NCBI GenBank assembly: GCA_021809325.1
Contig: JAKBAE010000007.1
Span: 1-33,976 of the forward strand
Length of the DNA stretch: 33,976 nt
Direction: 5' to 3'
Origin: a bacterium
GTDB lineage: Bacteria > Chlamydiota > Chlamydiia > Chlamydiales > SM23-39
Part shown: positions 12,751 through 31,777 of the stretch, one piece after another
How the letters are laid out: every line of letters begins with the position of its first letter
Position numbering within the stretch: position 1 is the first letter of the stretch
The notes under the pieces: generated by a model
What the model was told of the DNA's origin: nothing
What the model saw: the letters and a program-made list of their open reading frames with translations, nothing else
The model's database searches: none
Position numbers and translations under genes: made by a program

Positions 12751-12806
12751 TATCAAACGTTTTTCATTGAGTGCTGATGGAAAAATCAGTATCTTAATGT
12801 AGTCCT

Positions 12807-12881
12807 GGCCCCATCGTCTAGTCAGGTCTAGGACACCGGATTTTCATTCCGATAACAGGGGTTCGAATCCCCTTGGGGTCA
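12807..12881 (+). tRNA. tRNA-Glu (anticodon TTC)
   Basis: Acceptor GGCCCCA (12807-12813) pairs with TGGGGTC (12874-12880) with one G-U pair. The D-arm is TCGTCTAG...CTAGGAC, the anticodon arm CCGGA-TTTTCAT-TCCGA contains TTC, and the T-arm is AGGGG-TTCGAAT-CCCCT. The discriminator is A at 12881 and no CCA is encoded. tRNA-Lys follows after eight bases, so the two are probably one transcript. Confidence 0.96.
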
Positions 12882-12889
12882 GTTTTTAT

Positions 12890-12961
12890 GAGACTTTAGC
12901 TCAGCGGTAGAGCATCTCACTTTTAATGAGAGGGTCGATGGTTCGAATCCATCAAGTCTCA
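12890..12961 (+). tRNA. tRNA-Lys (anticodon TTT), likely integration target
   Basis: Acceptor GAGACTT (12890-12896) pairs with AAGTCTC (12954-12960). The D-arm is TAGCTCAGCGGTAGAGCA, the anticodon loop CTTTTAA carries TTT, and the T-arm is GATGG-TTCGAAT-CCATC. The discriminator is A at 12961. The next gene, 166 bases downstream and on the same strand, is a tyrosine recombinase, the classic arrangement of an element inserted into a tRNA 3' end. No second copy of the tRNA 3' end was found by eye in the rest of the window. Confidence 0.95.
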
Positions 12962-13004
12962 ACTTTCTATCCCACACAATCTTTTGCACATCAGCTCAAA
13001 GCAA

Positions 13005-13064
13005 CTTGACTCAAAAGATATTTTGAGCGCAAGATTTTAGGCAAACGGTGCAAGCGCGGTGCAA
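13005..13064 (+). repeat. Inverted and direct repeats upstream of the integrase
   Basis: Two patterned sites lie between tRNA-Lys and the recombinase gene. First, CTCAAAA-GATA-TTTTGAG (13010-13027) is a perfect seven-base inverted repeat, extended by CTTG (13005-13008) and CAAG (13030-13033). Second, CGGTGCAA occurs twice in direct orientation (13046-13053 and 13057-13064) with an 11-base period, about one DNA turn. They could be recombinase arm or core sites or a repressor operator. The rest of 12962-13127 shows no gene. Confidence 0.5.
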
Positions 13065-13127
13065 CGAAGAACAAAATTACTCAGCACCTCTTCCAATCGC
13101 TCCAACCCTGCAACCAAAGGTTAGAGC

Positions 13128-14198
13128 ATGGCTTCCATTTACAAGCGCAAATCCAAAGATGGTAAGACAGCCTGGCGTGCTGTCATCCGCATCAAAGGCT
13201 ATCCCACCGTCTGCAATCACTTCGATCGTAAGCAAGAAGCCGACGATTGGGCGAAAGAAACCGAACGCCGCATCAAACTCGGCCAGTTCAATTTTGAAGC
13301 CCACAACCAGCATCATACCTACGCAGAGCTCATCGACCGCCTGATCGCTGACGGCGCGCTTTCCCATCACCGCTCTCTTAAGAACTGCCAATCCCAGTTC
13401 GACTATTGGAAGGGGCGTCTAGGAGCTTACGCCCTGGTACATATCACCCCCGAGCTCATTTCTCAAGAGCGTAAACTCCTCATCGATTCACCTCTGCCTG
13501 ATGGCCGCAAGCGCAGCGCCTCGACGATCAACCGTTATACGGCCACTCTGTCCTCGACCTTGAGCTATGCCGTCAAGAAGCTCCGCTGGATCATAGAAAA
13601 TCCTTGCAAAAACCTGCTCAAACTCAAAGAAGATCCAGGCCGTGACCGAATCCTCACCGATGCCGAGGTCGCCTGTCTTCTCAAAGCCTGTAAGCAAAGC
13701 AAATCCTCCCTCCTCTATCCTATCGTTCTCTTTGCCCTGACTACCGGTGCGCGTCGCGGAGAGATCCTCAGTTTAGAATGGCGACATGTCGACCTCGAAA
13801 AAGGCATCGTTTTTCTCAAAGAGACGAAGAATGGGCGCCCTCGCAGTGTTGCCTTGGCTGATCCCGTGATCGATCAACTCAAGGCTTTATACGCAGCCCG
13901 TCAATCTGCGAAGCCGCTTGTCTTTGCCAGCAAGACCGCTTTTGGGCGGATTGATATCAAAAAGGCGTGGATGCAAGCGGTTAAACGAGCCGGAATCGAA
14001 GACTATCACTTTCATGATCTCCGACATCAATTCGCCACCCTTGCCGCCAGCACGGGAGCTTCCAATTTAGAATTGGCCACCGCGATGGGTCATCGTACAC
14101 TTGCCATGCTTCAGCGCTACACTCACCTCGATGCTCAGACGACCAAGAAATTCAGCAATCATATCTCAGAAAAATTTTTCCAAGGAGAAATCCGATGA
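13128..14198 (+). CDS. Tyrosine recombinase / integrase
   Basis: Site-specific DNA integrase. The 356-residue protein has an N-terminal arm-binding region starting MASIYKRKSKDG, a SAM-like core-binding domain (about 65-165) and a catalytic domain with all signature residues: Arg209 (TGARRGE), His296-x-x-Arg299 (HDLRH), His322 (MGHRT) and nucleophile Tyr331 (RYTHL). It is therefore probably active. It starts 166 bases after tRNA-Lys on the same strand. Its stop overlaps the dinD start as ATGA, so three genes (integrase, DinD, zeta-like) form one coupled unit, an unusual arrangement because integrases are normally transcribed alone. Confidence 0.93.
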   Translation: MASIYKRKSKDGKTAWRAVIRIKGYPTVCNHFDRKQEADDWAKETERRIKLGQFNFEAHNQHHTYAELIDRLIADGALSHHRSLKNCQSQFDYWKGRLGAYALVHITPELISQERKLLIDSPLPDGRKRSASTINRYTATLSSTLSYAVKKLRWIIENPCKNLLKLKEDPGRDRILTDAEVACLLKACKQSKSSLLYPIVLFALTTGARRGEILSLEWRHVDLEKGIVFLKETKNGRPRSVALADPVIDQLKALYAARQSAKPLVFASKTAFGRIDIKKAWMQAVKRAGIEDYHFHDLRHQFATLAASTGASNLELATAMGHRTLAMLQRYTHLDAQTTKKFSNHISEKFFQGEIR

Positions 14199-15079
14199 AT
14201 TCAAATACACCGGTTCCAGCTAATCCAACGTTTGAGTCTCTTAAAAAGGTGAACCAATTCGGTGTCGAGTATTGGAGCGCAAGGGATTTGCAGTCTTGTT
14301 TGGGATATACAAAATGGCAGCGATTTGAACTTGCAATCAAAAAAGCCATAGAGTCTTGCAAGCAATCTGGCAACGATCCTTCGAACCATTTTGCCGGCGC
14401 CGGTAAAATGGTCGAGATTGGAAGCCAGGCAGATAGGAAGATCGACGATTACCATCTTTCCCGTTTTGCCTGTTATTTGATTGCTCAGAACGGAGATCCG
14501 AGAAAGCCGGAAATTGCTCAAGCTCAGCAGTATTTTGCCTTTCAAACCCGACGGCAAGAGATTTCAGACCAGATGGCGGCGGATCTTGAGAGAGTAGAAA
14601 CGCGGGAGCAAACTACTGTAGAGTTCAAAGCTCTTTCAGGAGCTGCCCGTGATGCAGGAGTTCAAAATAAGATGTTCGGTATCTTCCATGATGCAGGATA
14701 CAAGGGACTCTATGGTGGGTTGGGCGTGGATGCAATTAAGAGCCGCAAGGGCATCCCCCATAATGAAAACTTGATGGATCGAATGGGGACAACCGAGTTG
14801 ATTGCGAACCAATTTCGGATGTCGCAGACCCGAGAGAAACTTAAGCGGGATAACATCAAAAATCAAAGAGATGCGATGGACACCCACTGCATGGTTGGAA
14901 AGGAAGTTCGGGCAGCCATTGAAAAAATCGGAGGGACACCTCCTGAAAATATCCCTCCCGAAGAACACATCAAGAAAGTGAAGCAAAGGCTAAAAATATC
15001 CAAGCCCTTGCCAAATCTCGATTCCGTTGATGTGAGAGGTTTGATCCCATCCGTAAGCAAGGAAGGACTAGAAGAATAA
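14195..15079 (+). CDS. dinD: DNA damage-inducible protein D (DinD-like)
   Basis: DinD is an SOS-induced protein in E. coli reported to antagonise RecA filaments; homologues are widely scattered on mobile elements. The 294-residue product matches the family: an N-terminal BRO-N/antA-like segment (VEYWSARDLQSCLGYTKWQRF, about residues 22-42), the GAGKMVEIGS and DYHLSRFACYLIAQNGDPRKPEIA block near 70-105, and the VQNKMFGIFHDAGYKGLYGGLG segment. Such domains often sit in phage and transposon genes. The start overlaps the integrase stop by four bases, and the stop overlaps the next start by one base (TAATG). Regulation is unknown; no obvious LexA operator was seen upstream. Confidence 0.85.
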   Translation: MNSNTPVPANPTFESLKKVNQFGVEYWSARDLQSCLGYTKWQRFELAIKKAIESCKQSGNDPSNHFAGAGKMVEIGSQADRKIDDYHLSRFACYLIAQNGDPRKPEIAQAQQYFAFQTRRQEISDQMAADLERVETREQTTVEFKALSGAARDAGVQNKMFGIFHDAGYKGLYGGLGVDAIKSRKGIPHNENLMDRMGTTELIANQFRMSQTREKLKRDNIKNQRDAMDTHCMVGKEVRAAIEKIGGTPPENIPPEEHIKKVKQRLKISKPLPNLDSVDVRGLIPSVSKEGLEE

Positions 15080-15990
15080 TGAGCGACCCTATCAAGGAGA
15101 TCTATTGCCTTCTCGATGAATTCGAAGCCGAAATCACTCAGGAAAGATCCTTTTGGAACGAAGTTAAAGAGAATAATCCGGAATTCGAGCCGGTGTCTGA
15201 GGAAAGCTGTCAAGAAAAGATCACACGCATGTGGCTCCATGGTGAAACCGAGACATACAAGTGCTATGAACTGGAGCGATGGCTATATGGGGATCCTCCG
15301 GCTACGAAGATCGCGCAGTCGCCAGCTCTGAGCGTGTACAAAGATTGGAGGAAATGGTTGAAAATTGCGGGGATTCCGAAATTTACAACTCGTTATGACT
15401 ACGACAAAAGGACTAGATGGTATCGAGAAGTTAAATCGGAAGAACCATCAGATATGTATTATGTAGCTGATAAACGGTTTGACATAGAAGAACCCACCAA
15501 AGATTTGCGATTCGGCGATAATAAACTCATCATTGACGAAATGAAGATTGATTCCTATCTGGCTTCTGCTGCAACTGATTTTATCCGACACAAGCTAATC
15601 CAAATGGGAAATTCTTTTACGTTTGAAACGGTCATGTCTCATCCTGGGAAAATAGAGATTCTACAAAAGGCTCAGGAAAAGGGATATCGAACTTATCTTT
15701 ATTTTATCGCAACAGAAGATCCTGAAATCAATATTACGCGTATTCAGCATCGGATCAAAACTGGAGGTCATTCGGTTCCTAAGAATAAAATCCGGAATCG
15801 CTATGATCGTTCATTGGCTCTACTGAGCCAAGCTATTCAATTCATCAATCGAGCCTATATCTTTGATAATTCACGTCAGGAGCCGATTTGGTTGGCGGAA
15901 ATTACCGATGGAAAAATATTGGAAATGAAAAGTGAATGGGTGCCTGACTGGTTTGAAAAGGCGCTATTGAAGAAATTAAAAAGCATGTGA
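15079..15990 (+). CDS. Zeta-toxin-like protein lacking the P-loop
   Basis: The C-terminal half (about residues 155-275) closely follows the zeta-toxin-like P-loop kinase family (COG4185 type): SYLASAATDFIRHKL, SFTFETVMSHPGKIE, GYRTYLYFIATEDPEIN, then RYDRSLALLSQAI and AYIFDNS. In that family a GxxGxGKS/T Walker A motif normally precedes this block. Here the first 150 residues contain no such motif in any frame and instead form a Trp- and charge-rich segment I do not recognise. The protein may be an inactivated kinase, a fusion with a new N-terminal domain, or a nucleotide-free regulator. It is coupled to dinD by a one-base overlap. No separate antitoxin gene is seen next to it. Confidence 0.65.
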   Translation: MSDPIKEIYCLLDEFEAEITQERSFWNEVKENNPEFEPVSEESCQEKITRMWLHGETETYKCYELERWLYGDPPATKIAQSPALSVYKDWRKWLKIAGIPKFTTRYDYDKRTRWYREVKSEEPSDMYYVADKRFDIEEPTKDLRFGDNKLIIDEMKIDSYLASAATDFIRHKLIQMGNSFTFETVMSHPGKIEILQKAQEKGYRTYLYFIATEDPEINITRIQHRIKTGGHSVPKNKIRNRYDRSLALLSQAIQFINRAYIFDNSRQEPIWLAEITDGKILEMKSEWVPDWFEKALLKKLKSM

Positions 15991-16055
15991 CTATACAGTT
16001 TCCTTTAATTCGTTTTGCGTGGCTGCTATTGAGGTGAAAGGGGTATGGGTTCTCC

Positions 16056-16085
16056 TTGACATAAAATATTTTAGAGCATTATAGC
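16056..16085 (+). promoter_or_regulatory. Sigma70-like promoter of the electron-transfer operon
   Basis: A perfect -35 hexamer TTGACA at 16056-16061 is followed after 17 bases by TTATAG (16079-16084) or after 18 by TATAGC (16080-16085). This is the best promoter seen in the window. Initiation is expected at about 16091-16093, which coincides with the GTG start codon of the downstream gene. Confidence 0.65.
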
Positions 16086-16092
16086 ATAGCGT

Positions 16093-17640
16093 GTGTTTAC
16101 GAAATGGAATCAATGGTTTCGAGATCGTCTTCCCCTTTCTTCAATTAAAAAGGCGCTTTTTGAAGAAGGGATTCCCGGAGGGGCCAAGTATTCTTATGCG
16201 TTAGGAAGTGCAGCCCTCTTTTTGCTGGTCCTTCTCGTCTTGACAGGCATCTGGCAAATGTTTGTCTACGTTCCAACCGTTGACCATGCATATACTAGCC
16301 TCTCCTACTTAAGAATCGATGTTCCCTTTGGATGGCTGGTCCATGGGCTGCATTATTGGGGCGCAGCTGCTTTTGCAGTTGTCGTAGGAGTGCATATCAT
16401 TCGAGTCTTCATTTGGGGCGCTTATAAAAAGCCAAGAGAGCTCGTTTGGTTTTCAGGAATTTTCCTTTTATTGTTGACAGTCCTTTTCATGTTCACAGGC
16501 CCAATCCTTCCTTGGGATAAAAAAGGGTATTGGGCTTGCAAGGTTGGGTTTGACATGATTGGAAGTTTGCCGTGGATCGGATCACTTCTTCAATCCATAT
16601 TTTGGGGATCCGAATCCATGGGGCAGGCCATTCTTAGCAGAATGTTTGCGTTTCACGTCGTGATCCTCCCGGCTCTTATTGGGGTGTTTGTCGTTTTACA
16701 TGTGCTTTTATTTCGAAGATATGGAAGTGCGGGCACTTGGAAAAAGGAGAAGCAAAATAGTGAAGGCCGATTCTGGCCGGATCAGATTTTCAAAGATACG
16801 ATTGTATCTTTAGCTATTTTTGTTTTGTTGGTTTCTTTAACCGTCTTTGTCCCTCCTCCATTTTCCGGAGCGGCAGATCCTTTAGATACTATCTACATCC
16901 CTAAGCCCGAATGGACCTTTTCTTTTTTTTACCAACTTTTAAAATATTTTCCCGGCCCTTGGGAGCCGCTTGGCATCGCGGGGATTCCTCTTCTCATTCT
17001 CCTTTTTTTTGCCTCTCTTCCCTTTATCGATCGATCGGAAGAGCGTCATCCGCTCAAACGCCCGTTTATCGTTTTTTTTGGCTCCCTCTTTTGCGCCTTT
17101 ATTGCAGCAATGACGATTCTAGGCCTTCTCAGCAAACCAAAAGAGGCAGCCATTCCCGTATCTCAAAATTTTATCGCAAGCCCCTCGCATGAAAAGTCTC
17201 TAACAAAGAAAGTTTTGCCCAATGGCGAAGCAATTCACATTGTTGGCAATGAAGAAAATGGAGAACGGTTATATGAGGCCTATTGCATGAATTGCCATGG
17301 CCCGCAAGGAAAACCGGTGATCCCCATTATTCCGAGTTTAAATCCGATCAGCCCAGCCTTTTACAGCCAAACTGTTTCCACTTTTGTTAAAAATATCGAC
17401 ATGATCATTCAACATGGCGGGGCCTCAAAGGAAATTGAGATGCCAGCTTTTGGAGATACGGAAGTTCTCACGCAGCAGCAAATCGCAGATATCGAAGCCT
17501 ATATCCTTCAAATCAATGGAGTTGACCGAGGCCAAATCCAACACCCCGGTGTTTCGCCGCATCGCTTCTTTTATTATTTTATAGGAGTGTTGGGGTGTTT
17601 GGTTGTTTTGAATTTTATTTTCATTAGACGCAAAAGATGA
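16093..17640 (+). CDS. Cytochrome b fused to a C-terminal cytochrome c (bc-type quinol oxidoreductase)
   Basis: Core of a menaquinol/quinol-oxidising bc complex in the inner membrane. Haem b ligands are visible as His87-x13-His101 and His188-x14-His203; the x14 spacing and the GYWACKVG...PWIG region resemble b6f-type cytochrome b. The Qo-site motif reads PEWT (272-275) instead of PEWY. After further helices (to about 340) comes a periplasmic cytochrome c domain with CMNCH at 398-402 and a final membrane helix. The start is the GTG at 16093: an in-frame TAG lies at 16087 and no later ATG fits. No Shine-Dalgarno is present and the promoter lies immediately upstream, so the message may be leaderless. 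The next gene starts four bases before this stop. Confidence 0.9.
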   Translation: MFTKWNQWFRDRLPLSSIKKALFEEGIPGGAKYSYALGSAALFLLVLLVLTGIWQMFVYVPTVDHAYTSLSYLRIDVPFGWLVHGLHYWGAAAFAVVVGVHIIRVFIWGAYKKPRELVWFSGIFLLLLTVLFMFTGPILPWDKKGYWACKVGFDMIGSLPWIGSLLQSIFWGSESMGQAILSRMFAFHVVILPALIGVFVVLHVLLFRRYGSAGTWKKEKQNSEGRFWPDQIFKDTIVSLAIFVLLVSLTVFVPPPFSGAADPLDTIYIPKPEWTFSFFYQLLKYFPGPWEPLGIAGIPLLILLFFASLPFIDRSEERHPLKRPFIVFFGSLFCAFIAAMTILGLLSKPKEAAIPVSQNFIASPSHEKSLTKKVLPNGEAIHIVGNEENGERLYEAYCMNCHGPQGKPVIPIIPSLNPISPAFYSQTVSTFVKNIDMIIQHGGASKEIEMPAFGDTEVLTQQQIADIEAYILQINGVDRGQIQHPGVSPHRFFYYFIGVLGCLVVLNFIFIRRKR

Positions 17641-19955
17641 AATTTTTTTCGTCAATCAAGCTGGCGATCGTTAACATCGTTCTTTTCATGATCTTAGTTG
17701 TGTTTGGAACAATCGCACAAATCTATTGGGGATCGCTCGAAGCTCAAGAAAAAATCTTTCGTGCTTTTTTTATCTTTTGGCAGTTTGATTTTTTGCCGAA
17801 AGAAGTTCCTGTTTTCCCGGGCGGATATGCAATAGGGGTTTTGTTTGCTCTCAATCTCTTCAGCTCCATGCTTACTTTTTCGGGGAAAAGGCTGGGCATC
17901 TATTTGATCCACTTCGGAATTCTATTTTTGTTAGTAGGCGAGGTGCTTTCGGGGATTTTTTCTTCGGAATCATTTCTTTCGCTCAAAGTAGGCGAAAAGA
18001 AAAGCGTAGGAAATCAGGCCCCGTTTCAAGTCGAGCTTGTTGAATTTCGTCAAGAGCTACACCCAGGCACGAATATTCCTAAACACTATTCGAGCTATCT
18101 ATTGGTTTTTACCCCTGAAGGCAAGCTCCTTCGAGTTGCATTTATCTCCATGAACCAGCCTTTCAGATTTTTAGGACAAACACTGTATCAAGCAGGGTTT
18201 ACAGAAGACGAATCGATTTTAAAAGTTGTATCCAATCCCTTTGCACTCTCCCCCTATCTCTCTTGTCTTTTGGTCCTCTTAGGATTTCTCACCCACTTTT
18301 TCACTCGTTTCTTTGTTTCTAGAAGAGTGCAAATAGCCGTTGCTTGCATGGTGTTTCTCCCCATTTTTGCAAACGCTGCGTCTCTTCAATACTTACCCGT
18401 TCAGCAAGACGGTCGCATCAAACCGCTCGATACCGTTGCCCGGAACTCCCTCTTGATGCTTCATGGATCGCAATCGCTAAAATACGAGCAGCAAACAATT
18501 GCTCCCATCGACTGGCTTCTCGATGTCTTGATGAATTCTAAGAAATCTAAAGAGATGAAATTGATCCGTGTCGAAAATTTAGATCTTTTAAGATTACTTG
18601 AAAGCAAAAGCAATGCAAGAGCTTATTATTCGATTAGTGAGCTGCAGCCGAAATTTAATGACCTGTTTGCTTTGTCTTCTTTGGCTCTGCAAATAGAAGA
18701 AAAAGCAAGAGATTCTTTTCAGAGGGCCGTCATCACTTTATGGCAGCAGATTGAGATCTATTTGCGATTGGCGAATAGCTTTTGGATTGCGGAAATTACT
18801 AATATTCCCGAGGAATTTTTAGATTTTCAAAATCACTATAGCGATCCCTGGCATCAAGAACGGTATCAATTTCTCTCGAATGTTGCTTACTTTCAAATGA
18901 TTCCTTTTGAGGGGCAATGGTTGAACATGGGAGAAGCTCTTCTCTCTAGCGATAAAGACAAAAGACTTTTGGGTCCGATTGAAAAGTTTGTCCGGCTCAT
19001 TTCAGATTATCAGCAAGGAAACCCGATCTCTATTTTAAAGCCGTCCTCAAAAATTTCTTTTGAGGTCTTCTTTAATCGGCTCCAACCTTTCTACATTGGG
19101 ATTTTCTGCTACCTATCAGCCATTTTACTGTCGGCCATCTTGAAAAATAAGATTCCGCTTTGGGTATTTGTAGGCGGGTTTCTCATTCATACTTTTGGGC
19201 TATTTGCTCGAATGTATCTCGAAGGACGACCTCCGGTGACAAATCTTTATTCCTCGGCGCTCTTTGTCGGTTGGGCAGCCGTGTTGATGAGCCTTGGCAT
19301 TGAATTTTTCTATCGCAATCGCTTGGGGTTGATTGCCGGAGCAGTGGTCGGCTCTTTGACATTGCTTATCGCACACCACTTTTCCTTTACCAGCGATACC
19401 ATGCAGCCGCTTCGAGCTGTGTTGAACTCGAATTTTTGGCTTTCGACGCATGTGGTGGCCATTACTTTAGGCTATAGCGCAACTTTTTTAGCCGGAACTT
19501 TTGGCACCATCTGGATTCTTGGGACGCTTTTTTCTCGAAAATTTTCCGGAGGCCGCACTCTTGAGACGCTCGTTTATGGGATCATTTGTTTTAGTGCATT
19601 CTTTAGCTTTCTGGGTACTGTTTTAGGCGGGTTTTGGGCAGATCAGTCTTGGGGCCGTTTTTGGGGGTGGGACCCAAAAGAAAACGGGGCCCTTTTAATC
19701 ATTTTGTGGAATTTGTTGATCCTTCATGCCCGGCTAGGCGGACTCATCCAAGCGCGAGGACTGATGGTGCTCTCCGTATTTGGAAATGTCGTGACAGCCT
19801 TTTCCTGGTTCGGCGTGAACTTCTTGAGCATCGGTTTGCACTCTTATGGATTTACAAGCGGATCTTTTTTACTCCTCTTTCTATTTGTGCTCTCTCAGGG
19901 AGTTGTTGTGGCGCTGGGTGGGTTTGTAAAAAAATCCTTGATTGTTTCTGGGTAA
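17637..19955 (+). CDS. ccsBA: Fused ResB-CcsA cytochrome c haem lyase (System II)
   Basis: Exports haem and attaches it to CxxCH motifs of c-type cytochromes. The N-terminal part (to about residue 225) is ResB/CcsB-like with several membrane helices. A long extracytoplasmic segment follows (about 245-475, opening with LQYLPVQQDGRIKPLDTVARN, typical of fused forms). The C-terminal part is CcsA-like with the Trp-rich haem-binding WGRFWGWDPKE motif (from Trp672) and several conserved His residues (THVVAITLGYS, LHSYGF). At 772 residues it is somewhat short for a CcsBA fusion but has both halves. It overlaps the cytochrome b-c gene by four bases, and every c-type substrate visible in this window is in the same operon. 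Confidence 0.9.
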   Translation: MKFFSSIKLAIVNIVLFMILVVFGTIAQIYWGSLEAQEKIFRAFFIFWQFDFLPKEVPVFPGGYAIGVLFALNLFSSMLTFSGKRLGIYLIHFGILFLLVGEVLSGIFSSESFLSLKVGEKKSVGNQAPFQVELVEFRQELHPGTNIPKHYSSYLLVFTPEGKLLRVAFISMNQPFRFLGQTLYQAGFTEDESILKVVSNPFALSPYLSCLLVLLGFLTHFFTRFFVSRRVQIAVACMVFLPIFANAASLQYLPVQQDGRIKPLDTVARNSLLMLHGSQSLKYEQQTIAPIDWLLDVLMNSKKSKEMKLIRVENLDLLRLLESKSNARAYYSISELQPKFNDLFALSSLALQIEEKARDSFQRAVITLWQQIEIYLRLANSFWIAEITNIPEEFLDFQNHYSDPWHQERYQFLSNVAYFQMIPFEGQWLNMGEALLSSDKDKRLLGPIEKFVRLISDYQQGNPISILKPSSKISFEVFFNRLQPFYIGIFCYLSAILLSAILKNKIPLWVFVGGFLIHTFGLFARMYLEGRPPVTNLYSSALFVGWAAVLMSLGIEFFYRNRLGLIAGAVVGSLTLLIAHHFSFTSDTMQPLRAVLNSNFWLSTHVVAITLGYSATFLAGTFGTIWILGTLFSRKFSGGRTLETLVYGIICFSAFFSFLGTVLGGFWADQSWGRFWGWDPKENGALLIILWNLLILHARLGGLIQARGLMVLSVFGNVVTAFSWFGVNFLSIGLHSYGFTSGSFLLLFLFVLSQGVVVALGGFVKKSLIVSG

Positions 19956-19974
19956 GTGTCCTATACCCTCTTCT

Positions 19975-20472
19975 ATGAAACAGTCTCGTTATTTTAAAGC
20001 AGTTGTAACAGTCGTTTCACTATTTATCATTGCTGCCTTAGGCTGGTCTTTTGGCTCTTATCTCGTAAGCCCTTTCTATAACACTAGCAGAAAACAACGT
20101 CTTTTTGAGGTGGACGGCTTTAAGACCTTAGTTGAAGAACATCCAACTCAGCTTTCTTTCCAAATGATTGCTCAGGATGAATTTATTAAGGAGAATAAGA
20201 TCCAACAAGTATGGGTGGTGAAGCATGCAGGGGATAAAGTGACGGTTTTTTCTCCGTTTTGTCCTCACCTAGGATGCCGCTACAATTGGGACCCGGCCTT
20301 GAAGAAATTTTTCTGTCCTTGCCACGCCAGCATTTTTAATATTAAAGGACAGGTGTTAAGCGGGCCTGCTCCCAGGTCGTTGGACACTTTGCCTTATGTG
20401 ATCAAGGACGATCAGTTGTACGTACAGTGGGAACAGTTCAAACCGGGAGTCAGTCAAAAAATTGAAATCTAG
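19975..20472 (+). CDS. Rieske [2Fe-2S] iron-sulphur protein
   Basis: Electron-transfer subunit of the bc complex, tethered by an N-terminal membrane helix (about residues 9-30) with the cluster domain outside. Cluster ligands are Cys96, His98, Cys114 and His117, in CPHLGC and CPCHAS. Cys101 and Cys116 form the expected disulphide, and the SGPAPRSL loop is present. The ATG at 19975 is preferred over an in-frame TTG at 19942 because it gives a normal N-terminus, though neither has a strong Shine-Dalgarno. The gene starts 19 bases after the haem-lyase stop. Its 3' end overlaps the small cytochrome c gene by 11 bases. Confidence 0.93.
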   Translation: MKQSRYFKAVVTVVSLFIIAALGWSFGSYLVSPFYNTSRKQRLFEVDGFKTLVEEHPTQLSFQMIAQDEFIKENKIQQVWVVKHAGDKVTVFSPFCPHLGCRYNWDPALKKFFCPCHASIFNIKGQVLSGPAPRSLDTLPYVIKDDQLYVQWEQFKPGVSQKIEI

Positions 20473-20779
20473 AATTTTGGCTGTCCTCTTTTTTAGCGGG
20501 CTCTTCGCTTCTCTTTACGGACAAAATGGACAACAGCTCTTCAACAATAACTGCGCTGTATGCCATGGGACTGAGGGCCATGGAAATACCCCCATGGGCA
20601 AAGCGATTTCCAATTTGCCCGATTTGGCCAGCCCGTCCACCGATCAGCTCTCCGATGAAGAAATATTCGATATCATTACGAACGGCAAAGGAGTAATGCC
20701 CGCATTTCAGCAAAAACTGAGCGATGCGGATCGCAAGGCATTAATCAAGTATGTGCGTTCATTGTCAGAAAAGAAATGA
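20462..20779 (+). CDS. Small periplasmic monohaem cytochrome c
   Basis: Probable soluble electron carrier. The 105-residue product has a signal peptide (about residues 1-20), haem motif CAVCH (31-35) and the distal Met79 in GVMPAF, as in class I cytochromes (cytochrome c-553/cbb3 type). The start is a TTG at 20462 inside the end of the Rieske gene, with GGGAG some 12 bases upstream. An alternative TTG at 20477 would still leave a signal peptide. The stop overlaps the next gene start as ATGA. Position suggests it takes electrons from the bc complex and passes them onward. Confidence 0.9.
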   Translation: MKSRILAVLFFSGLFASLYGQNGQQLFNNNCAVCHGTEGHGNTPMGKAISNLPDLASPSTDQLSDEEIFDIITNGKGVMPAFQQKLSDADRKALIKYVRSLSEKK

Positions 20780-21891
20780 GATTTTATTTAGCTCTTTTTC
20801 TTCTTCTTTGTAGTAAAACACTTGAAGCGGTGCCGAGTTTTGCAAGAAATCTTGGGGTTGATTGCAATGTTTGCCATACGGCCTATCCGCAGTTAACCGA
20901 ATATGGGAAGATATTTTTGGAAACCGGCGGGGAAATTCTAATTCAAAAGGATTATGGAAAGCTCGCTATGACGCCGGAAGTGATTTCCGGCCATGTATAT
21001 TTGCTCCCTGTAGATAAGCATTTTTCTGCCGATTCGACTACAGCGCTTACAAATGAAGATAAGCAATTGCAGTTAAGGGCCTACAGTGAAGTCAATGCCT
21101 ACCTCGCCGGTCGTACGGGAAAAGTGTTTTTCTTTACCGTTTTTTCCGCGACTGACGACAACGGCTTTTCTGTGACCTTCGATGAAGGGTTTGCTATGCT
21201 CAATCTTTTGAGTAACAGCCTAAATATCTTTGGCGGTTTTGATTCCCCCTACATCACAGATGGCAACGATACCGTTCAGCATCATAACGTATTGAATCGA
21301 CAGTGGAAAGCCGCCGAATACACGCCTGATACAAGCCAGATGGTTGGCCTCAATGGAATGCTGGGTGGTTTTTATTGGATTGCTACATGGAATGGCGCCC
21401 CTCAAGTTACTATGGGAAATGATGCGCAAGGATACAGTTTAAGGGCCGCCTACGAAGTTTCCAATCAAACCTTTGGCGCTTATCTCTCTCATAACGCTTT
21501 CTATGACGACAATGCTGAATACTCGATTGACCCTTTTTTATTTTATGGATTGGATGGGCACTTGCGATTTTGGGATACAAATATCCTGATGGTCCTTGGT
21601 TTTAGGAAATTGCATCACTATGAAACGGATTGGGATTTTTCTATAGAAGCAAATAAGATTTTTACGACCAACTGGAAATATCTTACTGAGATCATTCCTA
21701 TTGCCAATCTCGATATCTTTGTCGATCGACCTAAAAGCAATGGACTATGGCTGCAAGGCTCTGCCGGAGTTGCATTCAATATCAACCCCTCTGTTCGTTT
21801 TTTGCCCCAAGTTTCGGGAACTCTCTATTCTCCATCGGAATACAAGCATAAGGCATTCTCCGTGCTTCTCTCCGCAGATATCGGTTTATAG
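20776..21891 (+). CDS. Outer-membrane barrel-like protein with N-terminal haem c motif
   Basis: Exported 371-residue protein. A signal peptide (about 1-18) is followed by PSFARNLGVDCNVCHTAYP, with a c-type haem motif at Cys30-Cys33-His34. From about residue 60 onward the sequence alternates polar and hydrophobic residues with aromatic girdles and many Gly/Asn/Asp turns, as in an outer-membrane beta-barrel, ending in VLLSADIGL. Proteins with this N-terminus joined to a barrel occur in many respiring bacteria. It is the last gene of the operon, overlapping the small cytochrome c by four bases. I infer that it carries haem at the periplasmic mouth of an outer-membrane barrel. The length fits about 14-16 strands, but this is not computed. 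Confidence 0.75.
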   Translation: MRFYLALFLLLCSKTLEAVPSFARNLGVDCNVCHTAYPQLTEYGKIFLETGGEILIQKDYGKLAMTPEVISGHVYLLPVDKHFSADSTTALTNEDKQLQLRAYSEVNAYLAGRTGKVFFFTVFSATDDNGFSVTFDEGFAMLNLLSNSLNIFGGFDSPYITDGNDTVQHHNVLNRQWKAAEYTPDTSQMVGLNGMLGGFYWIATWNGAPQVTMGNDAQGYSLRAAYEVSNQTFGAYLSHNAFYDDNAEYSIDPFLFYGLDGHLRFWDTNILMVLGFRKLHHYETDWDFSIEANKIFTTNWKYLTEIIPIANLDIFVDRPKSNGLWLQGSAGVAFNINPSVRFLPQVSGTLYSPSEYKHKAFSVLLSADIGL

Positions 21892-21892
21892 A

Positions 21893-21924
21893 GGGAGATA
21901 TCCGCAATCTGCGAATACCTCCCT
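21893..21924. terminator. Hairpin between convergent genes
   Basis: GGGAGATATCCGCA (21893-21906) and TGCGAATACCTCCC (21910-21923) pair around a three-base loop. In the + transcript two positions mismatch (A-C). In the - transcript the same positions become G-U pairs, so the stem is complete there. It lies just after the haem-barrel stop and 24 bases beyond the end of the convergent repeat protein. No long U-run follows on either side. Confidence 0.5.
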
Positions 21925-21947
21925 AAATGAACCCATTTCACTTTTAG

Positions 21948-24176
21948 TTAGTAGGTCCAGTTGCCTACAGATGAGGTCACCAGCCAGTCTGCATTATCGG
22001 CTATGCAAACCATGTTGAGCGTGTCTCCTTGGTTATTCGAAGTAATACTTCCGCTAACCGGCACTAGTACATCTCCAAACTGGACCGTTTGCGATCCGCT
22101 TTGTTGAACTGAAATTTGATTGCCTCCTTTCAGAGAAACCGTCAACAAGTCGCCAAAAGCAGAGCTGGCCGGAAGAGAAACCGAGACCGTGCCCGAAACT
22201 CCAAGGTAGGCGTGATTAGAGGTCGCCGCCGTGTTGGTGGAAACGGTTCCCCAAACAACTCCTGCAGCAGTCGACGCAATCGTAATCCCTCCCGCAGAAT
22301 TAGTAATCACAATACCGTTTCCAGGAGTCAGGGTGGCTGCTGCCGGATTCGCGCCGGTAGATCCAATGAGAACCTGGCCATTTGTCATTGGCCCGATTGT
22401 TCCAAGCTGCCCGTGCGGGTCGATCACTACTGGCGCGCTCACCGTGCCTGCCGTTGAAACCGTGCCATAGATGCCGCCGATGTAGCACTGCGTCATTGAG
22501 GCTGTCGCGCCGATACGAGTGACATTCGATTCGCCTGCTATCCCCAAAACGTTCGCGCCGATCAAGATATTGTTCGACTCGCTGCCACTGTAATTCGCAC
22601 CTACCTGATAGCCAATTGCTGTATTCTCAGTTCCGGAGAAGCCGAAAAAGGGTATGGCGCCTGCACCGAAGGCCGTGTTATTATCACCTGTATTGCCGGT
22701 GAGAGCATTCATCCCCATCGCTGTGCAAGAACCGTAAGTTCCCCCATTGGCTAAAGCCGAGTAGCCTACGCCGCAATTATTATTGCCATTAGTAGCATTT
22801 AGAGAATAATGTCCTACAGCCGTGTTGTTGAGTGGTACGACCCCCCCCTGACCGGTGAATTGCATGGCATATGATCCTACAGCAACATTTTCGCCGCCAT
22901 CCACTAGGGTGTATAAGGCCTGAGTTCCAATCGCGATATTCATACTGCCGCTTAAGTTGCTATACATAGCTGAAGTGCCCATGGCGACGTTTTGGTTCCC
23001 GCCTCTATTTGAAAACATAGCGTTTGATCCAACAGCGGTATTTGCGATGTTATCATTGGCATAAAGCGCTTGATAACCGACGGCGACATTATCATGCCCT
23101 ACAACATTAGTATAAAGGGCCTGGTAGCCCATAGCGACATTAAAGCCGGCTGCTACATTAGAGGTAAGCGCTTGGTATCCTACGGCTGTATTGCTATCTC
23201 CCGTAGTATTGCTCTGCAAAGCGCCGGCTCCAAATGCTGTGTTGTAAGGGTTGGTGTTGGCATAGAGAGCATTACAGCCCATTGCTGTACAAGAGCCGCC
23301 TATCACATTGCTGTAAAGCGCATTAAACCCAACTGCTGCGTTATAAGCGCCAGTTGTATTGGCCTGGAGCGCAAAGGATCCCACGGCAGTGTTGCCGAGG
23401 CCTGTTGTATTGGAAGACAGAGTCCAATGTCCTATGGCGGTGTTGTCATCAGCTATACTGGCGGTTTCAAGCGCAATATTTCCTATGGCAGTGTTTCTAG
23501 ATCCTGTCGAGCTGTTCCTAAGAGCTTGGTTTCCTACAGCGGTGTTGTTAGCGCCTGTCGTATTACTGCTAAGCGCGCTATATCCTACGCCGGTGTTACT
23601 GTCCGTCGTATTGCTGGCAAGAGCACCTGATCCTATAGCGGTGTTAAAGCTGCCCGTCGTATTGCTGCTAAGAGCAAAATATCCTATGCCGGTGTTCTCT
23701 CCGCCTGTTGTATTGGCATTAAGTGCGGAAGATCCTACAGCGACGTTATCATAGCCTGACGTATTGGTAGCGAGCGCATCATTCCCTAAGGCGGCATTTT
23801 CATAGCCGTCTAGATTTGCAGCAAGCGCATTAGCGCCCACAGCGGTGTTGTGGTCCCCGCTCGTATTGGCAGAGAGCGCATATGCCCCTATGGCAGTAAT
23901 GGAGTCTTGCGTGTTGGCACCAGAGAGCGCATGAGCTCCTACGGCTGTGTTAAAACTGTGTGTTGTATTCGAGGAAAGCGCACCGGCTCCTAAGGCGGTG
24001 TTGAAATCACCACTCGTATTAGAAGAGAGCGCTTGGTGGCCGATAGCTGTGCAGCTGGCCCCTGTTGAGCTTGTCGAGAGAGCGCCTGCTCCCATCGATG
24101 TGATATAAGGGGACGAATTTTGAGTGACTATTGTGTCCGATACGGTGTCTTGATTAGTAACGTTTATTAAGTTCAT
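21948..24176 (-). CDS. Large repeat protein with about 30 seventeen-residue N-T-A-V-G repeats
   Basis: A 742-residue protein. Residues about 30-540 consist of about 30 tandem copies of a 17-residue unit, roughly N-T-A-V-G-x-x-A-L-x-x-N-x-T-G-x-x, giving a 51-base DNA periodicity. This resembles the left-handed beta-roll heads of trimeric adhesins and phage-type tail fibres. The remaining 200 residues include IGGIYGTVSTAGTVSAPV, reminiscent of the stalk before S74 endosialidase-chaperone domains, then a Ser/Thr-rich beta domain ending VGNWTY. No signal peptide and no YadA-type membrane anchor are visible, so the export route is unclear. A surface or secreted adhesin is inferred. Extended AT-rich sequence (24177-24317) precedes it. 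Confidence 0.75.
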   Translation of the reverse strand: MNLINVTNQDTVSDTIVTQNSSPYITSMGAGALSTSSTGASCTAIGHQALSSNTSGDFNTALGAGALSSNTTHSFNTAVGAHALSGANTQDSITAIGAYALSANTSGDHNTAVGANALAANLDGYENAALGNDALATNTSGYDNVAVGSSALNANTTGGENTGIGYFALSSNTTGSFNTAIGSGALASNTTDSNTGVGYSALSSNTTGANNTAVGNQALRNSSTGSRNTAIGNIALETASIADDNTAIGHWTLSSNTTGLGNTAVGSFALQANTTGAYNAAVGFNALYSNVIGGSCTAMGCNALYANTNPYNTAFGAGALQSNTTGDSNTAVGYQALTSNVAAGFNVAMGYQALYTNVVGHDNVAVGYQALYANDNIANTAVGSNAMFSNRGGNQNVAMGTSAMYSNLSGSMNIAIGTQALYTLVDGGENVAVGSYAMQFTGQGGVVPLNNTAVGHYSLNATNGNNNCGVGYSALANGGTYGSCTAMGMNALTGNTGDNNTAFGAGAIPFFGFSGTENTAIGYQVGANYSGSESNNILIGANVLGIAGESNVTRIGATASMTQCYIGGIYGTVSTAGTVSAPVVIDPHGQLGTIGPMTNGQVLIGSTGANPAAATLTPGNGIVITNSAGGITIASTAAGVVWGTVSTNTAATSNHAYLGVSGTVSVSLPASSAFGDLLTVSLKGGNQISVQQSGSQTVQFGDVLVPVSGSITSNNQGDTLNMVCIADNADWLVTSSVGNWTY

Positions 24177-24317
24177 AACTCTACTCTGTGTTTGTTTGTT
24201 TAATGGGCGGAAAACTTATTCCCGCTACAAAAATACAAATAAATATTTTTAATATTAAATACAAACGAAAAAAGAAGATAATTTTTTTATAGAACAGTAA
24301 TATTTGTTATAAATATA
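24177..24317 (-). promoter_or_regulatory. AT-rich upstream region of the repeat protein
   Basis: This 141-base gap between two minus-strand genes is strongly A/T-rich, with long T and A runs and no coding frame. It probably contains the promoter of the repeat protein and perhaps an UP-like element, but no confident -35/-10 pair can be picked out. The outer-membrane gene upstream ends at 24318, so a separate transcript is likely. Confidence 0.3.
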
Positions 24318-25190
24318 TTAAAACTGAAGTGCCGCGCCCAGGTTATAGGCAATTGAATAGGTCGACTTATCTTGCTTTCCATTCAAATTCTGTATTAGGG
24401 GAAATCCGATGCCCCATTGAAAAATCCAGCGGTTGGATGAGAGCCAAATGCTTGGCGTCACAAAAAGCGAATTCCCTCCGGAATCGGGATCGGTTTTGCC
24501 ATCGATCCTGTCCCTCTCAACATACTGTCCGTCAAATTCGACCATCAAATCGAAAACCCAGCCCGGCGGGCTCAAGGGGCCGATATACCGGGCAAAGCCC
24601 CATTGATAGAGATAGGAGTTGCCGAATTTAGTGCCGTGACGGGTAGTAGTGATTAGGGCGCCCGGAGATGCGAATGCGTACCAATTTGGCGTAAGATAGG
24701 CAAAGGTTGTCCCTAAAAAGTAGCTACACGATCCGTTGCCTGTCGGAGGATTTTTTATGCTCGATCCGGTAGGGAACTGGATGGCCCCGACGACGGTAGT
24801 CTGAAAAATCGCCTCTCGGTAGGTCAGGTTGTAGTACCCATACTCCGCCTGTAAGAGAAGATCTCCCACCCCTGATGAATGCAAGGGGCCGGAGCGGTTT
24901 TTTAAATTGTATGGGACAAAAAGGGCGAGGGAAAGGTCGTCCAAAATCCCATAGATGACGTTTGGGACGAGCAAATTTGAGCTGCTTTTTCGCCCTTGCG
25001 TGTAGGATCCCGACAGCTCCGGAAAGAGAACTTGTTTGCCGATCAGCAGTTGTCCAAAGCTGATGAGCGGGGAAACCTGCGTTGCGGGCGGAACGGAGAA
25101 ATTGCCGATGGGAACAGGTTTTTTTTCCTCTTCTTCAATCGCAAAAAGAGAGGCGCTTAAGGCCACTATGCAAAGACACTTTCCTCTCAA
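24318..25190 (-). CDS. Outer-membrane beta-barrel protein (transporter-like)
   Basis: Exported protein of about 290 residues. A short signal peptide (RGKCLCIVALSASLFA) leads into a sequence with alternating hydrophobic strands (for example YGILDDLSLALFVPYNL and VGDLLLQAEYGYYNLTYREAIFQTTVV) and a terminal Phe, as expected for a BAM-folded barrel. It resembles the loosely defined MetA/phenol-pathway outer-membrane family, but I cannot name a substrate. The TTG at 25190 is preferred: it overlaps the stop of the uracil glycosylase as TTGA, and AGAGAGGG lies just upstream. The alternative ATG at 25223 would overlap that gene by 37 bases and lacks a Shine-Dalgarno. Confidence 0.7.
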   Translation of the reverse strand: MRGKCLCIVALSASLFAIEEEEKKPVPIGNFSVPPATQVSPLISFGQLLIGKQVLFPELSGSYTQGRKSSSNLLVPNVIYGILDDLSLALFVPYNLKNRSGPLHSSGVGDLLLQAEYGYYNLTYREAIFQTTVVGAIQFPTGSSIKNPPTGNGSCSYFLGTTFAYLTPNWYAFASPGALITTTRHGTKFGNSYLYQWGFARYIGPLSPPGWVFDLMVEFDGQYVERDRIDGKTDPDSGGNSLFVTPSIWLSSNRWIFQWGIGFPLIQNLNGKQDKSTYSIAYNLGAALQF

Positions 25191-25849
25191 AGAGCCCTCT
25201 CTTGGATTTTTTTTAAAAGGCATTGGAAGCTTTGGTCTGTGAGCACCCCTGTATTGGTGTTTTGGGGGCTGGGGTGATAGCTCGCATAGAGAAGAGGGAC
25301 TCCTTCACATTCATAACAGGCGCCGTGGGCGAACTTGAAGGAGCGGCAGGCAATGTTTCGACGCAAGAGATGGGATTTATAGGCTTGAAACGCGATCTGC
25401 CCAAGCGCAAGGACGGATTTCAAGCGGGGCAGGAGTGTGAGCTCTTCTTCCAAATAACGGCTGCATCGCTCGATTTCAATAGGCAGCGGTTTATGCTTCG
25501 GCGGGACGCATTTGACCGCTGCGGTAAGGTAGCAGCCGATGAGCTTGAGCCCATCTTGTCTATGCAATGAATCAGGCTGGTTGGCAAATCCTGCAGCGTG
25601 GAGATTGCGGATCAAAAACTTTGCAGAAGGGTCGCCCGTAAAGATCCGCCCGGTGCGGTTTGCACCGTCCGAGGAAGGGGCGAGTCCCAAGATCAACAGC
25701 CACGCCTCGGGATCTCCAAATCCCGGGATCGGTTTTCGCCAATGGGTCTCCGATGCATAGCATTTTCGCGAGGGGACTGACTCACGGTGCTCGACGAGCC
25801 TCGGGCAAAGGCGGCACTCGATAATGGCGTCGTTTAAGCTTTTTTTCAA
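25187..25849 (-). CDS. Uracil-DNA glycosylase, family 5 (UdgB) type
   Basis: Removes uracil and some other deaminated bases from DNA. Motif 1 reads GLAPSSDGANRTGRIFTGD (residues 55-73), close to the UDGb pattern, and the HPSPQNTNTG motif is near residue 190. Four cysteines (12, 15, 114, 129) fit the [4Fe-4S] site of iron-sulphur glycosylases. The start is a TTG at 25849 with AGGAG six bases upstream. At 220 residues it is normal for the family. It shares a coupled junction with the outer-membrane gene downstream and diverges from the hydrolase gene. Confidence 0.87.
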   Translation of the reverse strand: MKKSLNDAIIECRLCPRLVEHRESVPSRKCYASETHWRKPIPGFGDPEAWLLILGLAPSSDGANRTGRIFTGDPSAKFLIRNLHAAGFANQPDSLHRQDGLKLIGCYLTAAVKCVPPKHKPLPIEIERCSRYLEEELTLLPRLKSVLALGQIAFQAYKSHLLRRNIACRSFKFAHGACYECEGVPLLYASYHPSPQNTNTGVLTDQSFQCLLKKIQERAL

Positions 25850-25885
25850 TTCTCGCTCCTTTCCCTATCCGATTATCAATTATTT

Positions 25886-25894
25886 TGGCATAAT
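25886..25894 (+). promoter_or_regulatory. Extended -10 element for the alpha/beta hydrolase
   Basis: TGGCATAAT (25886-25894) matches an extended -10 (TGn plus CATAAT, five of six). There is no matching -35. Initiation would fall near 25901, leaving about 20 bases of leader that includes TTTGGAG at 25908-25914 before the ATG at 25922. Confidence 0.4.
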
Positions 25895-25921
25895 CTTCCC
25901 CTCAAATTTTTGGAGTTTGCC

Positions 25922-26836
25922 ATGAGACTTTTTCGTTGGATCGCTTCGCTTTTTTTGATGTTGCCCGTTTTGGTGTTTTCAGAAACTCCAAGGAGATTTT
26001 TTTTCGATGAAAACCGCGTGCGCTACGAACTGGTCCAAACAAACGGCTCCAAGCCTTATAACTGGCTCTTTTTGCCGGGAGGGCCCGGCTCGGATTCGAG
26101 CTATCTCCAAAGTTTAGTGGACCTGCTCAACTTGCCCGGCAACGTCTGGTTCATTGATCTGCCCGGCTCAGGTACGAATAAAGTGGAGGATGAGGCTCAA
26201 GATTATAATCAGTGGTTGGAGATCTTTCCTCAGGTTATCGATAAGTTTTCCAATCCGATCCTCGTCGGCCACTCCTTTGGCGGGATGTTCCCCCTTCTTT
26301 TTCCTCAGCTCGAACAGAGCCTCAAAGGATTTATAGTCCTCCATTCGACCCCTTCTCTTTGGCAAGAGGCGGCGCTTGAGTATGCCAAGCGATTTTCTTT
26401 GCCTTCATTCGATGCCGAGATTGCAGCATTTTCCGCCAATCCCAGCAAAGAAACATTCGAGGCGGCGCTAGAAGCTTGCACGCCTTACTACTTCCCTCCC
26501 TCCGGGATCGAAGCCGGAAGAAAATTATTCGCCCAAACAGTTTGCCAATATGAGCCGGCGCTTTGGTGGCTCAAAAAAGCTACCGAGATGAATTTTACGG
26601 CAAAGTGGGTTCCCGAGAGAGTCCCTGCACTGATCATCGGCGGGAAATACGATTGCATGTGCCCCTTTTCCGTCTATCAAAACGACTCTCGCTTTGACCG
26701 GGAAAACGTGACGCTTCTTTTCATCAAAAACGGGGGGCATTGCAGCTGGCTCGACAATCCTAAAGCGATTCAAAAAGCCTTTGCAAAATTTATTCGAGGC
26801 CTTGATCTCAAACGGAAAAAGGAGGTTGGGCGATGA
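25922..26836 (+). CDS. Exported alpha/beta-hydrolase
   Basis: Secreted or periplasmic serine hydrolase of unknown substrate. A signal peptide (about residues 1-20, MRLFRWIASL...VFS) precedes the hydrolase fold. LPGGPG at 51-56 forms the oxyanion-hole turn as in proline iminopeptidases, GHSFGG carries nucleophile Ser118, KYDCMCP likely supplies the acid, and the histidine is in NGGHCSW. The ATG at 25922 has a Shine-Dalgarno (TTTGGAG) seven bases upstream; an upstream TTG at 25910 is less likely. The 3' end overlaps the convergent FkbM gene by 29 bases. Peptidase, esterase and lipase roles cannot be separated by eye. Confidence 0.82.
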   Translation: MRLFRWIASLFLMLPVLVFSETPRRFFFDENRVRYELVQTNGSKPYNWLFLPGGPGSDSSYLQSLVDLLNLPGNVWFIDLPGSGTNKVEDEAQDYNQWLEIFPQVIDKFSNPILVGHSFGGMFPLLFPQLEQSLKGFIVLHSTPSLWQEAALEYAKRFSLPSFDAEIAAFSANPSKETFEAALEACTPYYFPPSGIEAGRKLFAQTVCQYEPALWWLKKATEMNFTAKWVPERVPALIIGGKYDCMCPFSVYQNDSRFDRENVTLLFIKNGGHCSWLDNPKAIQKAFAKFIRGLDLKRKKEVGR

Positions 26837-29931: not shown

Positions 29932-30960
29932 ATGATTTCAAAATCTTGTGCTTTAAATGTTAGTTTTCGAAGCTCCTTCATCGACCACATTACGCCTCTC
30001 GCCTCGCTTCTCGGCATTCCGCTTATCGTCAGCGACGAAAAGAACGCAAGTCTGAGCGCTCACTATTATCCCGAAGCGAAGATCCGTTATTGGCCTGATT
30101 ATGAATTTAGGATGAAAGAGCTTGCGGATGAGTTTGACGCTCTTATTAGTTGCGACTATTGGGGGCCGGTAAACAAAGCTTCCTTCCGGCTCCATAACCA
30201 AAAGGAGATGAAGTTCATCTTTTGCCCTCATGGACAATCGGACAAGGGGTATCACTCTTCGTTTCTCTCTCCTTATGCGCAGCAAGAGGCGGTGCTTCTC
30301 TATGGAAGCCTTCTCAAGGAGATGCTGGTTGACTTGCAGATATGGGACAAAATTCCAAGGAGCGCTGTCGTGGGCAATTACCGGAGGCGCTATTACGAAG
30401 ACAATCGTGAAAGGCTCCTCAAACTCGCAGACGATGAAGTTTTTTCGCGCCTCCGGCCCGGACAGCGCACTTTGCTCTATGCCCCTACTTGGAATGACCT
30501 AGAGCGTTCGGGAACGTTTTTTGAGCAGGGAAAGAGGCTTTTAGAGGCTGTCCCCTCAGATTGGAACCTTCTCATCAAAGTGCATCCGGACTTGGCGCAG
30601 CTCGATCCTGTTCTCTATTACCGGCTTTCGCTTTTTGAAGAAAAGCGCTCCAATTTTCTTTTGATCGAAGAGTTTCCTCCCATCTATCCTCTTTTGGAGA
30701 GGGCCGATGTGTATTTGGGGGACTATTCATCCATCGGATACGACTTTTTAGCCTTTCAAAAGCCGATGTTTTTCTTGCAAAAGCCCCATCTTGAGCGTCC
30801 TAGGCTCCACTTTTGCGGAAGGGCGCTCGATTCGGTGGACGATCTATTCAAAATGGTGGAAGGGGATGTCAATTCATTTCAAGAGGCGCAAAAAGAGCTG
30901 TATGGAAAGGCCTTTGCCCCTGTCGAGGATTTGCGGCTCGCTTTAGAAGGGTGTTTATGA
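29932..30960 (+). CDS. CDP-glycerol/CDP-ribitol phosphotransferase-like protein (TagF/TarL family)
   Basis: Probably transfers glycerol- or ribitol-phosphate from the CDP-activated form to a surface polymer. Family features: CPHGQSDKG (HG motif), RTLLYAPTWND, LLIKVHPDLAQ and the catalytic GDYSSIGYD segment. About 342 residues, without the N-terminal extension of long TagF proteins. The ATG at 29932 begins just before the conserved region; ATGs at 29878 and 29890 would overlap the divergent cyclase start region. No strong Shine-Dalgarno is seen for any. The stop overlaps the following glycosyltransferase start (ATGA). A cytidylyltransferase-SDR fusion at the right edge could supply CDP-ribitol. 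Confidence 0.78.
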   Translation: MISKSCALNVSFRSSFIDHITPLASLLGIPLIVSDEKNASLSAHYYPEAKIRYWPDYEFRMKELADEFDALISCDYWGPVNKASFRLHNQKEMKFIFCPHGQSDKGYHSSFLSPYAQQEAVLLYGSLLKEMLVDLQIWDKIPRSAVVGNYRRRYYEDNRERLLKLADDEVFSRLRPGQRTLLYAPTWNDLERSGTFFEQGKRLLEAVPSDWNLLIKVHPDLAQLDPVLYYRLSLFEEKRSNFLLIEEFPPIYPLLERADVYLGDYSSIGYDFLAFQKPMFFLQKPHLERPRLHFCGRALDSVDDLFKMVEGDVNSFQEAQKELYGKAFAPVEDLRLALEGCL

Positions 30961-31717: not shown

Positions 31718-31777
31718 CATAGAAAGGCATTTTCCCCTGCCGAGGATTTGCGGCTTGCTTTAGAGGGGTGTTTATGA
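31718..31777 (+). pseudogene. 3' remnant of the phosphotransferase gene (duplication scar)
   Basis: Translated in frame this stretch gives RKAFSPAEDLRLALEGCL and a stop, nearly identical to the end of the phosphotransferase (GKAFAPVEDLRLALEGCL at 30904-30960). It keeps the same ATGA junction with the second glycosyltransferase copy. It marks the left end of a tandemly duplicated unit of 817 bases. Confidence 0.85.

Follow-up and report, generated by a model that had tools for sequence, protein, structure and literature searches.

A probably horizontally acquired operon for a Cyc2-like cytochrome-porin and a bc-type complex in a chlamydial genome

The window analyzed here is a stretch of 33,976 nucleotides that makes up one whole contig (JAKBAE010000007.1) of a draft genome from the Chlamydiales (2.19 Mb, 97% complete, 159 contigs), referred to below as G000. 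At its center lies an operon of five genes, which encode a cytochrome b-c fusion, a cytochrome c haem lyase, a Rieske protein, a small cytochrome c, and a predicted outer-membrane cytochrome-porin that resembles Cyc2. The operon appears to have been acquired horizontally and to supply the respiratory chain with a self-sufficient branch of c-type cytochromes. That its products link the quinone pool with the outer membrane, whichever way the electrons run, is probable; that the link exists and the electrons also run outward is, taken jointly, about an even proposition. Statements about G000 as a whole rest on searches of the genome.

The five open reading frames (ORFs) are intact, run in one direction from 16093 to 21891, and either overlap their neighbors or are separated by a gap of 19 bases. 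This layout, and the identities of the first four genes, had been proposed in a first-pass annotation made from the sequence, and both are borne out by the ORF coordinates and by domain matches. The operon and the sequence before it are arranged as follows.

16057 to 16086, + strand: promoter-like TTGACA-18-TATAGC, unproven (read in the sequence)
16093 to 17640, + strand: cytochrome b (b6-type, with N- and C-terminal parts in one chain) carrying a C-terminal monohaem cytochrome c domain (PF00033, PF13631, PF00032, PF13442)
17637 to 19955, + strand: CcsBA fusion, System II cytochrome c haem lyase (Pfam ResB and Cytochrom_C_asm, TIGR03144)
19942 to 20472, + strand: Rieske [2Fe-2S] protein with one N-terminal membrane anchor, the probable start being the ATG at 19975 (PF00355, one hydrophobic segment)
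20462 to 20779, + strand: small soluble monohaem cytochrome c with a signal-like N-terminus and a TTG start (PF13442, PF00034)
20776 to 21891, + strand: Cyc2-like fused cytochrome-porin, with a signal peptide, AVPSFARNLG..CNVCH..PQL, and then about 16 predicted beta strands (N-terminal homology, structure model)

The haem and iron-sulfur motifs, which the annotation had called intact, have been located in every product. In the cytochrome b-c fusion the haem b histidine pairs are found at 87/101 and 188/203, the PEW motif at 272, and a single CxxCH (CMNCH) at 398, the Rieske protein retains its ligand motifs (CPHLGC...CPCHAS), and the small cytochrome c has its haem site as CAVCH. Two haem b histidine pairs, a Qo-site PEW, Rieske C-x-H and C-x-C-H motifs, and a c haem together make up the full set expected of a bc complex. 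CcsBA shares with other System II enzymes of this name the fusion of ResB with CcsA and the WWD motif (WGRFWGWDPKENG), and it also has LHSYG and the flanking histidines. The thiol-reducing partners of System II are CcdA/DsbD and CcsX. Of these, CcdA/DsbD was missed by the profile searches in three of the four porin-bearing genomes: the DsbD_TM profile had no match in G000, G194, or G161, and DsbD_2 had none in any of the four. A periplasmic-type thioredoxin with a CPPC motif is encoded near one of the Cyo oxidase operons of G000 (L049 6744-7541).

The last protein, of 371 residues, has a signal peptide and a single CxxCH (CNVCH); when searched against Pfam, NCBIfam, and PDB sequences it gave nothing significant. 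Its first 50 or so residues match plasmid-encoded proteins of Caballeronia and Methylocystis that are labeled as cytochrome C or hypothetical (best E values 4e-4 to 1e-3), and hhalign, run against three Cyc2-like proteins of proteobacteria, gives a probability of 97.7% (E 2.4e-12) over the N-terminal 48 columns, which marks the cytochrome domain as homologous to that of Cyc2-like proteins. Homologues outside the Chlamydiae were sought in plasmid sequences only. Searching with one of the proteobacterial Cyc2-like proteins led to homologues on plasmids of Acidiphilium and Acidithiobacillus ferrooxidans, and in the six plasmid records examined a c-type cytochrome gene lies next to the Cyc2-like gene or within about 3 kb of it.

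The Cyc2 signature has been defined as AXPXFAR[Q/K][T/Y] five residues before a single CXXCH, followed by PXL and a fused 16-stranded porin of at least 365 amino acids (PMC8406198). The chlamydial protein shares with Cyc2 the signal peptide, AxPxFAR, a CxxCH five residues further on, PxL, and a neighboring c-type cytochrome gene, and its remainder is predicted, at low confidence, to be a 16-stranded porin. The single CXXCH followed by PXL is present in all four chlamydial homologues (CNVCHTAYPQL and equivalents). In the strict motif, read here as AVPSFAR-NL-GVD-CNVCH, the first seven positions fit and the last two are N-L; the other chlamydial proteins have AVPSFARNLG or something very similar. 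The annotation had described a barrel-like outer-membrane protein with a CxxCH; the latter is certain, whereas the barrel is a prediction of low confidence, in which the modeled 16 strands find their nearest solved folds among OmpU/OmpF-type porins (E 6.5e-5 to 1e-3, pLDDT 50). Further differences from Cyc2 are the length, most Cyc2 proteins having at least 400 residues, a barrel that cannot be aligned, and linkage to a bc complex and CcsBA, as against cytochrome c oxidase in the case of Cyc2. Because the [Q/K][T/Y] positions are missed and the model is of low confidence, the protein is best described as Cyc2-like and is not assigned to Cyc2 proper; it is likely to reside in the outer membrane.

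The question of where the bc complex might deliver its electrons can be approached from the rest of the genome. A profile search and a genome-wide CxxCH scan of G000 revealed no c-type cytochromes beyond the three of the operon, and CcsBA apparently serves only products of the operon to which it belongs. The other long ORFs with a CxxCH were rejected as cytochromes on inspection, being RtcB-like, DCC-type, HemN-like radical SAM, or out of frame. As had been noted, there is no terminal oxidase in the operon; elsewhere in the genome there are three, two of the bo3 type and one bd, all of them quinol oxidases. Both COX1 genes sit in CyoABCDE-like clusters, and their subunit II is without the CuA cysteines that Omnitrophota subunit II has. 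A canonical cytochrome c oxidase was accordingly rejected as the sink, both COX1 genes being of the bo3 type, and the check for cbb3 or aa3 enzymes that the annotation had recommended found these quinol oxidases and, in G000, no cytochrome c oxidase of the CuA or cbb3 kind. The peroxidase-type sink that it had considered is unlikely, as a search of all four porin-bearing genomes gave no CCP-type peroxidase. Since other cytochromes c, cytochrome c oxidase, and CCP are all missing from these searches, the bc complex has no recognizable partner beyond the small cytochrome c and the porin. The two bo3-type (Cyo) quinol oxidase operons of G000 (L049 120-4745 and L050 4088-7807) are themselves divergent from one another.

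Among 234 chlamydial genomes the porin profile is found in four, which belong to two families: G000 and G194 in one, G122 and G161 in another. The porin of G000 is 54-58% identical to the other three, all of which also have orthologues of the small cytochrome c, and the cytochrome c and porin genes stand side by side in all four genomes. G194, from another genus, has all five genes at 43-55% identity (54% for the cytochrome b-c fusion), but there the cytochrome b-c and ccsBA genes converge on the Rieske, cytochrome c, and porin genes, so that it is the gene set and not the order that is conserved. In G122 the porin, cytochrome c, and Rieske genes lie at a contig end beside pepF and groES, two genes that stand in the usual chlamydial order. 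The Rieske protein of G122 (L052 1974-2507) has both histidine ligands replaced (CPNEDC and CPCDAS) with the remainder conserved, and would thus keep the Rieske fold but lack the ligands for the cluster. G161 has the porin and cytochrome c together with separate ResB and CcsA, and neither a cytochrome b nor a Rieske protein was found in this 94%-complete genome. Directly upstream of its resB and ccsA genes, and opposite the cytochrome c/porin pair, is a gene for a DUF2231 membrane protein (L053 5044-5709), which is a possible substitute partner for the bc complex. The conserved core is the cytochrome c/porin pair, with the maturation enzyme adjoining in three of the four genomes. As bc genes are absent in G161 and the Rieske ligands are lost in G122, the pair is kept there without this bc complex, which suggests another inner-membrane partner in these two genomes.

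From these components a route can be proposed. A b6-type quinol:cytochrome c oxidoreductase, formed by the cytochrome b-c fusion and the Rieske protein, would exchange electrons between the quinone pool and the small periplasmic cytochrome c, and CcsBA would attach haem to all three c-type cytochromes of the operon. The small cytochrome c would in turn exchange electrons with the one-haem cytochrome-porin, which could pass them to or from a soluble donor or acceptor outside, the haem being placed at the base of the porin within reach of a small redox-active molecule. Outward flow would provide an overflow or anaerobic acceptor route beside the quinol oxidases. The annotation had put forward a path that leads from quinol across the periplasm and on to the outer membrane, and it is supported by the Cyc2-like porin, by the confinement of c-type cytochromes to the operon, and by the lack of a cytochrome c oxidase among the search results; the location of the porin in the outer membrane, the pairing of the proteins with one another, and the outward direction are what we infer.

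Several observations weigh against this proposal. Those Cyc2 proteins that have been tested biochemically oxidize Fe(II) and carry electrons inward (PMC8406198). N-L replaces [Q/K][T/Y] in all four chlamydial homologues, and confidence in the barrel is low (pLDDT 50, and 38 for the model of a homologue). No DsbD/CcdA-type reductant was found in G000, and an oxidase may be missing from an assembly that is 97% complete. Finally, G161, without cytochrome b and Rieske, and G122, with a ligand-less Rieske, still keep the cytochrome c/porin pair.

The strongest alternative is that electrons flow inward, with the porin oxidizing Fe(II) or another extracellular donor and passing electrons through cytochrome c and a reversed bc complex to quinone and the bo3 and bd oxidases. 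The Cyc2 homologues of iron oxidizers are iron oxidases (PMC8406198), and in known Cyc2 pathways bc1 serves reverse electron transport while a cytochrome c oxidase takes the downhill branch (PMC7029218). On an Acidithiobacillus ferrooxidans plasmid, a Cyc2-like gene is likewise accompanied by one for a c-type cytochrome, and pumping bo3 oxidases are present in G000. However, the cytochrome c oxidase that those pathways use was not found in G000, the Cyc2 motif deviates, and obligate intracellular life would presumably offer no obvious steady supply of Fe(II). Without the cytochrome c oxidase branch of those pathways, inward flow requires the bc complex to be reversed, whereas electrons moving outward would run downhill and need no gene that G000 lacks, and this direction is favored for that reason; inward flow, though a serious contender, is on balance unlikely.

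A less probable account holds that the bc complex and cytochrome c serve a soluble periplasmic acceptor and that the porin haem is used for sensing, redox-gated transport, or the handling of haem or iron. The homology of the porin to Cyc2 is confined to its first 50 or so residues, and genomes without the bc complex retain the porin, both of which would fit. Against it, G000 yielded no further c-type cytochrome, CCP, or cytochrome c oxidase, the cytochrome c and porin genes are always adjacent, and Cyc2-like genes elsewhere also lie by or near a cytochrome c gene. We regard it as improbable.

On the broadest reading, some obligately intracellular Chlamydiae might carry out extracellular electron transfer through a mobile bc-cytochrome c-Cyc2-like porin conduit, exchanging electrons with the vacuole, the host, or, in their extracellular forms, the environment. 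This wider claim is tentative, and we hold it with slightly less than even confidence. Chlamydiae have been described as relying on quinol and cbb3 oxidases and on host energy, and a transferable outer-membrane electron module with its own maturation enzyme would, if true, add an energy route for an intracellular phylum. It would also extend Cyc2-like cytochrome-porins past their known range, with a direction and a partner that can be tested with purified parts. We found no paper that connects Chlamydiae with Cyc2 or extracellular electron transfer in the open-access literature, a coverage that takes in few subscription journals. Each of the parts is of a kind already known; what appears to be new is their combination, its mobility, and its host.

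The presence of bc complexes in Chlamydiae is not in itself novel (PMC9816063), and PF00033 cytochrome b occurs in 52 of the 234 genomes of the phylum. The annotation's view that such an operon is unexpected in an obligate intracellular lineage needs to be narrowed, since canonical bc1 is common and it is the acquired type with a cytochrome-porin that is unusual. The canonical chlamydial bc1 belongs to the same functional class but has a Rieske-first operon and no fused cytochrome c like that of G000. All chlamydial cytochromes b that were compared are canonical, with 25-29% identity over long alignments, except those of G000 and G194 and one b6-type protein of G232. The nearest relatives outside the Chlamydiae, taken from one scan of a genome collection, come from one Omnitrophota assembly and one further assembly (L037 and L038), with 51-52% identity over the fused protein and 40-41% for the Rieske protein. 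These operons share with the chlamydial one the fusion of a cytochrome c domain to cytochrome b, but their fusion has three haems in place of one, a CuA oxidase operon stands immediately upstream, and neither CcsBA nor a porin adjoins. A neighboring canonical oxidase as electron acceptor, which had been named as an observation that would count against the outer-membrane route, is therefore the case in the Omnitrophota-type operons closest to this one, whereas the chlamydial versions do not show it.

In a phylogenetic tree the L037/L038-type and chlamydial fusions form one fully supported group, on long branches, far from canonical chlamydial cytochrome b. Identity and tree together rule out vertical descent from chlamydial bc1, and the cytochrome b-c type of the operon is, on its sequence relationships, most probably horizontally acquired, grouping with Omnitrophota and not with the usual chlamydial bc1. 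This points to an exchange of genes with other little-known and perhaps host-dependent bacteria, Omnitrophota among them. Separately, G232 has three different cytochrome b genes in one chlamydial genome (L032, L033, L034); one of these, a b6-type protein of 369 residues whose gene adjoins a Rieske gene, comes closest to the fusion type among its chlamydial relatives.

The operon lies within a genomic island, which begins with the following features.

12806 to 12963, + strand: tRNA-Glu and tRNA-Lys, left island border (ARAGORN)
13128 to 14198, + strand: tyrosine integrase (PF00589); G194 and G199 have integrases 72-79% identical to it at this tRNA site
14195 to 15990, + strand: Bro-N domain gene and zeta-toxin-like kinase gene, island cargo (PF02498, PF06414)

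The congener G196 aligns to the window through 12972 and resumes at 25997, with the 13 kb from 12973 to 25996 absent. GC content at third codon positions (GC3) is 0.43-0.51 in the operon against 0.53-0.71 in most flanking genes. An integrase beside a tRNA, an empty site in a relative, and a deviating composition are the marks of a tRNA-borne island. Attachment-site direct repeats were not detected, there being no second exact copy of at least 12 bases of 12781-13130 elsewhere in the window. A Bro-N homologue is also encoded on the G194 contig that bears the module.

The island insertion, the low GC, the patchy distribution, and the ligand-less Rieske of G122 might be read as signs of mobile cargo that is decaying or silent in chlamydiae and has no present function. 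Such a reading is very unlikely, as all five frames and the cofactor motifs are intact in both G000 and G194 despite divergence to 43-55% identity; the cytochrome c and porin, and ResB and CcsA in G161, are intact in the other genomes as well. A chimeric or contaminated contig, with an operon from another bacterium, could be suspected from a draft of 159 contigs with GC shifts within the contig, but it is hardly credible given that both flanks align with G196, that the flanking gene order is conserved in the congener and the family, that G194 and G199 carry related integrases at this tRNA site, and that homologues occur in three further chlamydial assemblies, in one of them (G122) beside pepF and groES. 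The contig is thus of chlamydial origin, like its relatives.

The strong promoter that had been claimed for the operon is unsupported. A perfect TTGACA stands at about 16057, but at a spacing of 18 nucleotides the one hexamer that resembles a -10 element is TATAGC, which lies a few bases 5' of the GTG start. A consensus promoter scan found no site ahead of the operon and nine sites in the region in total, against a chance expectation of 9.7 from shuffled sequence.

Two further features of the window may be mentioned. Within the island, on the - strand at 21948 to 24176, a protein of 742 residues consists almost wholly of NTAxGxxAL-type repeats, resembles an adhesin head or tail fiber, and has no Pfam match. 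The neighboring genes at 30813 to 31706 and 31768 to 32553 match one and the same gene of the congener, and are probably the product of a tandem duplication.

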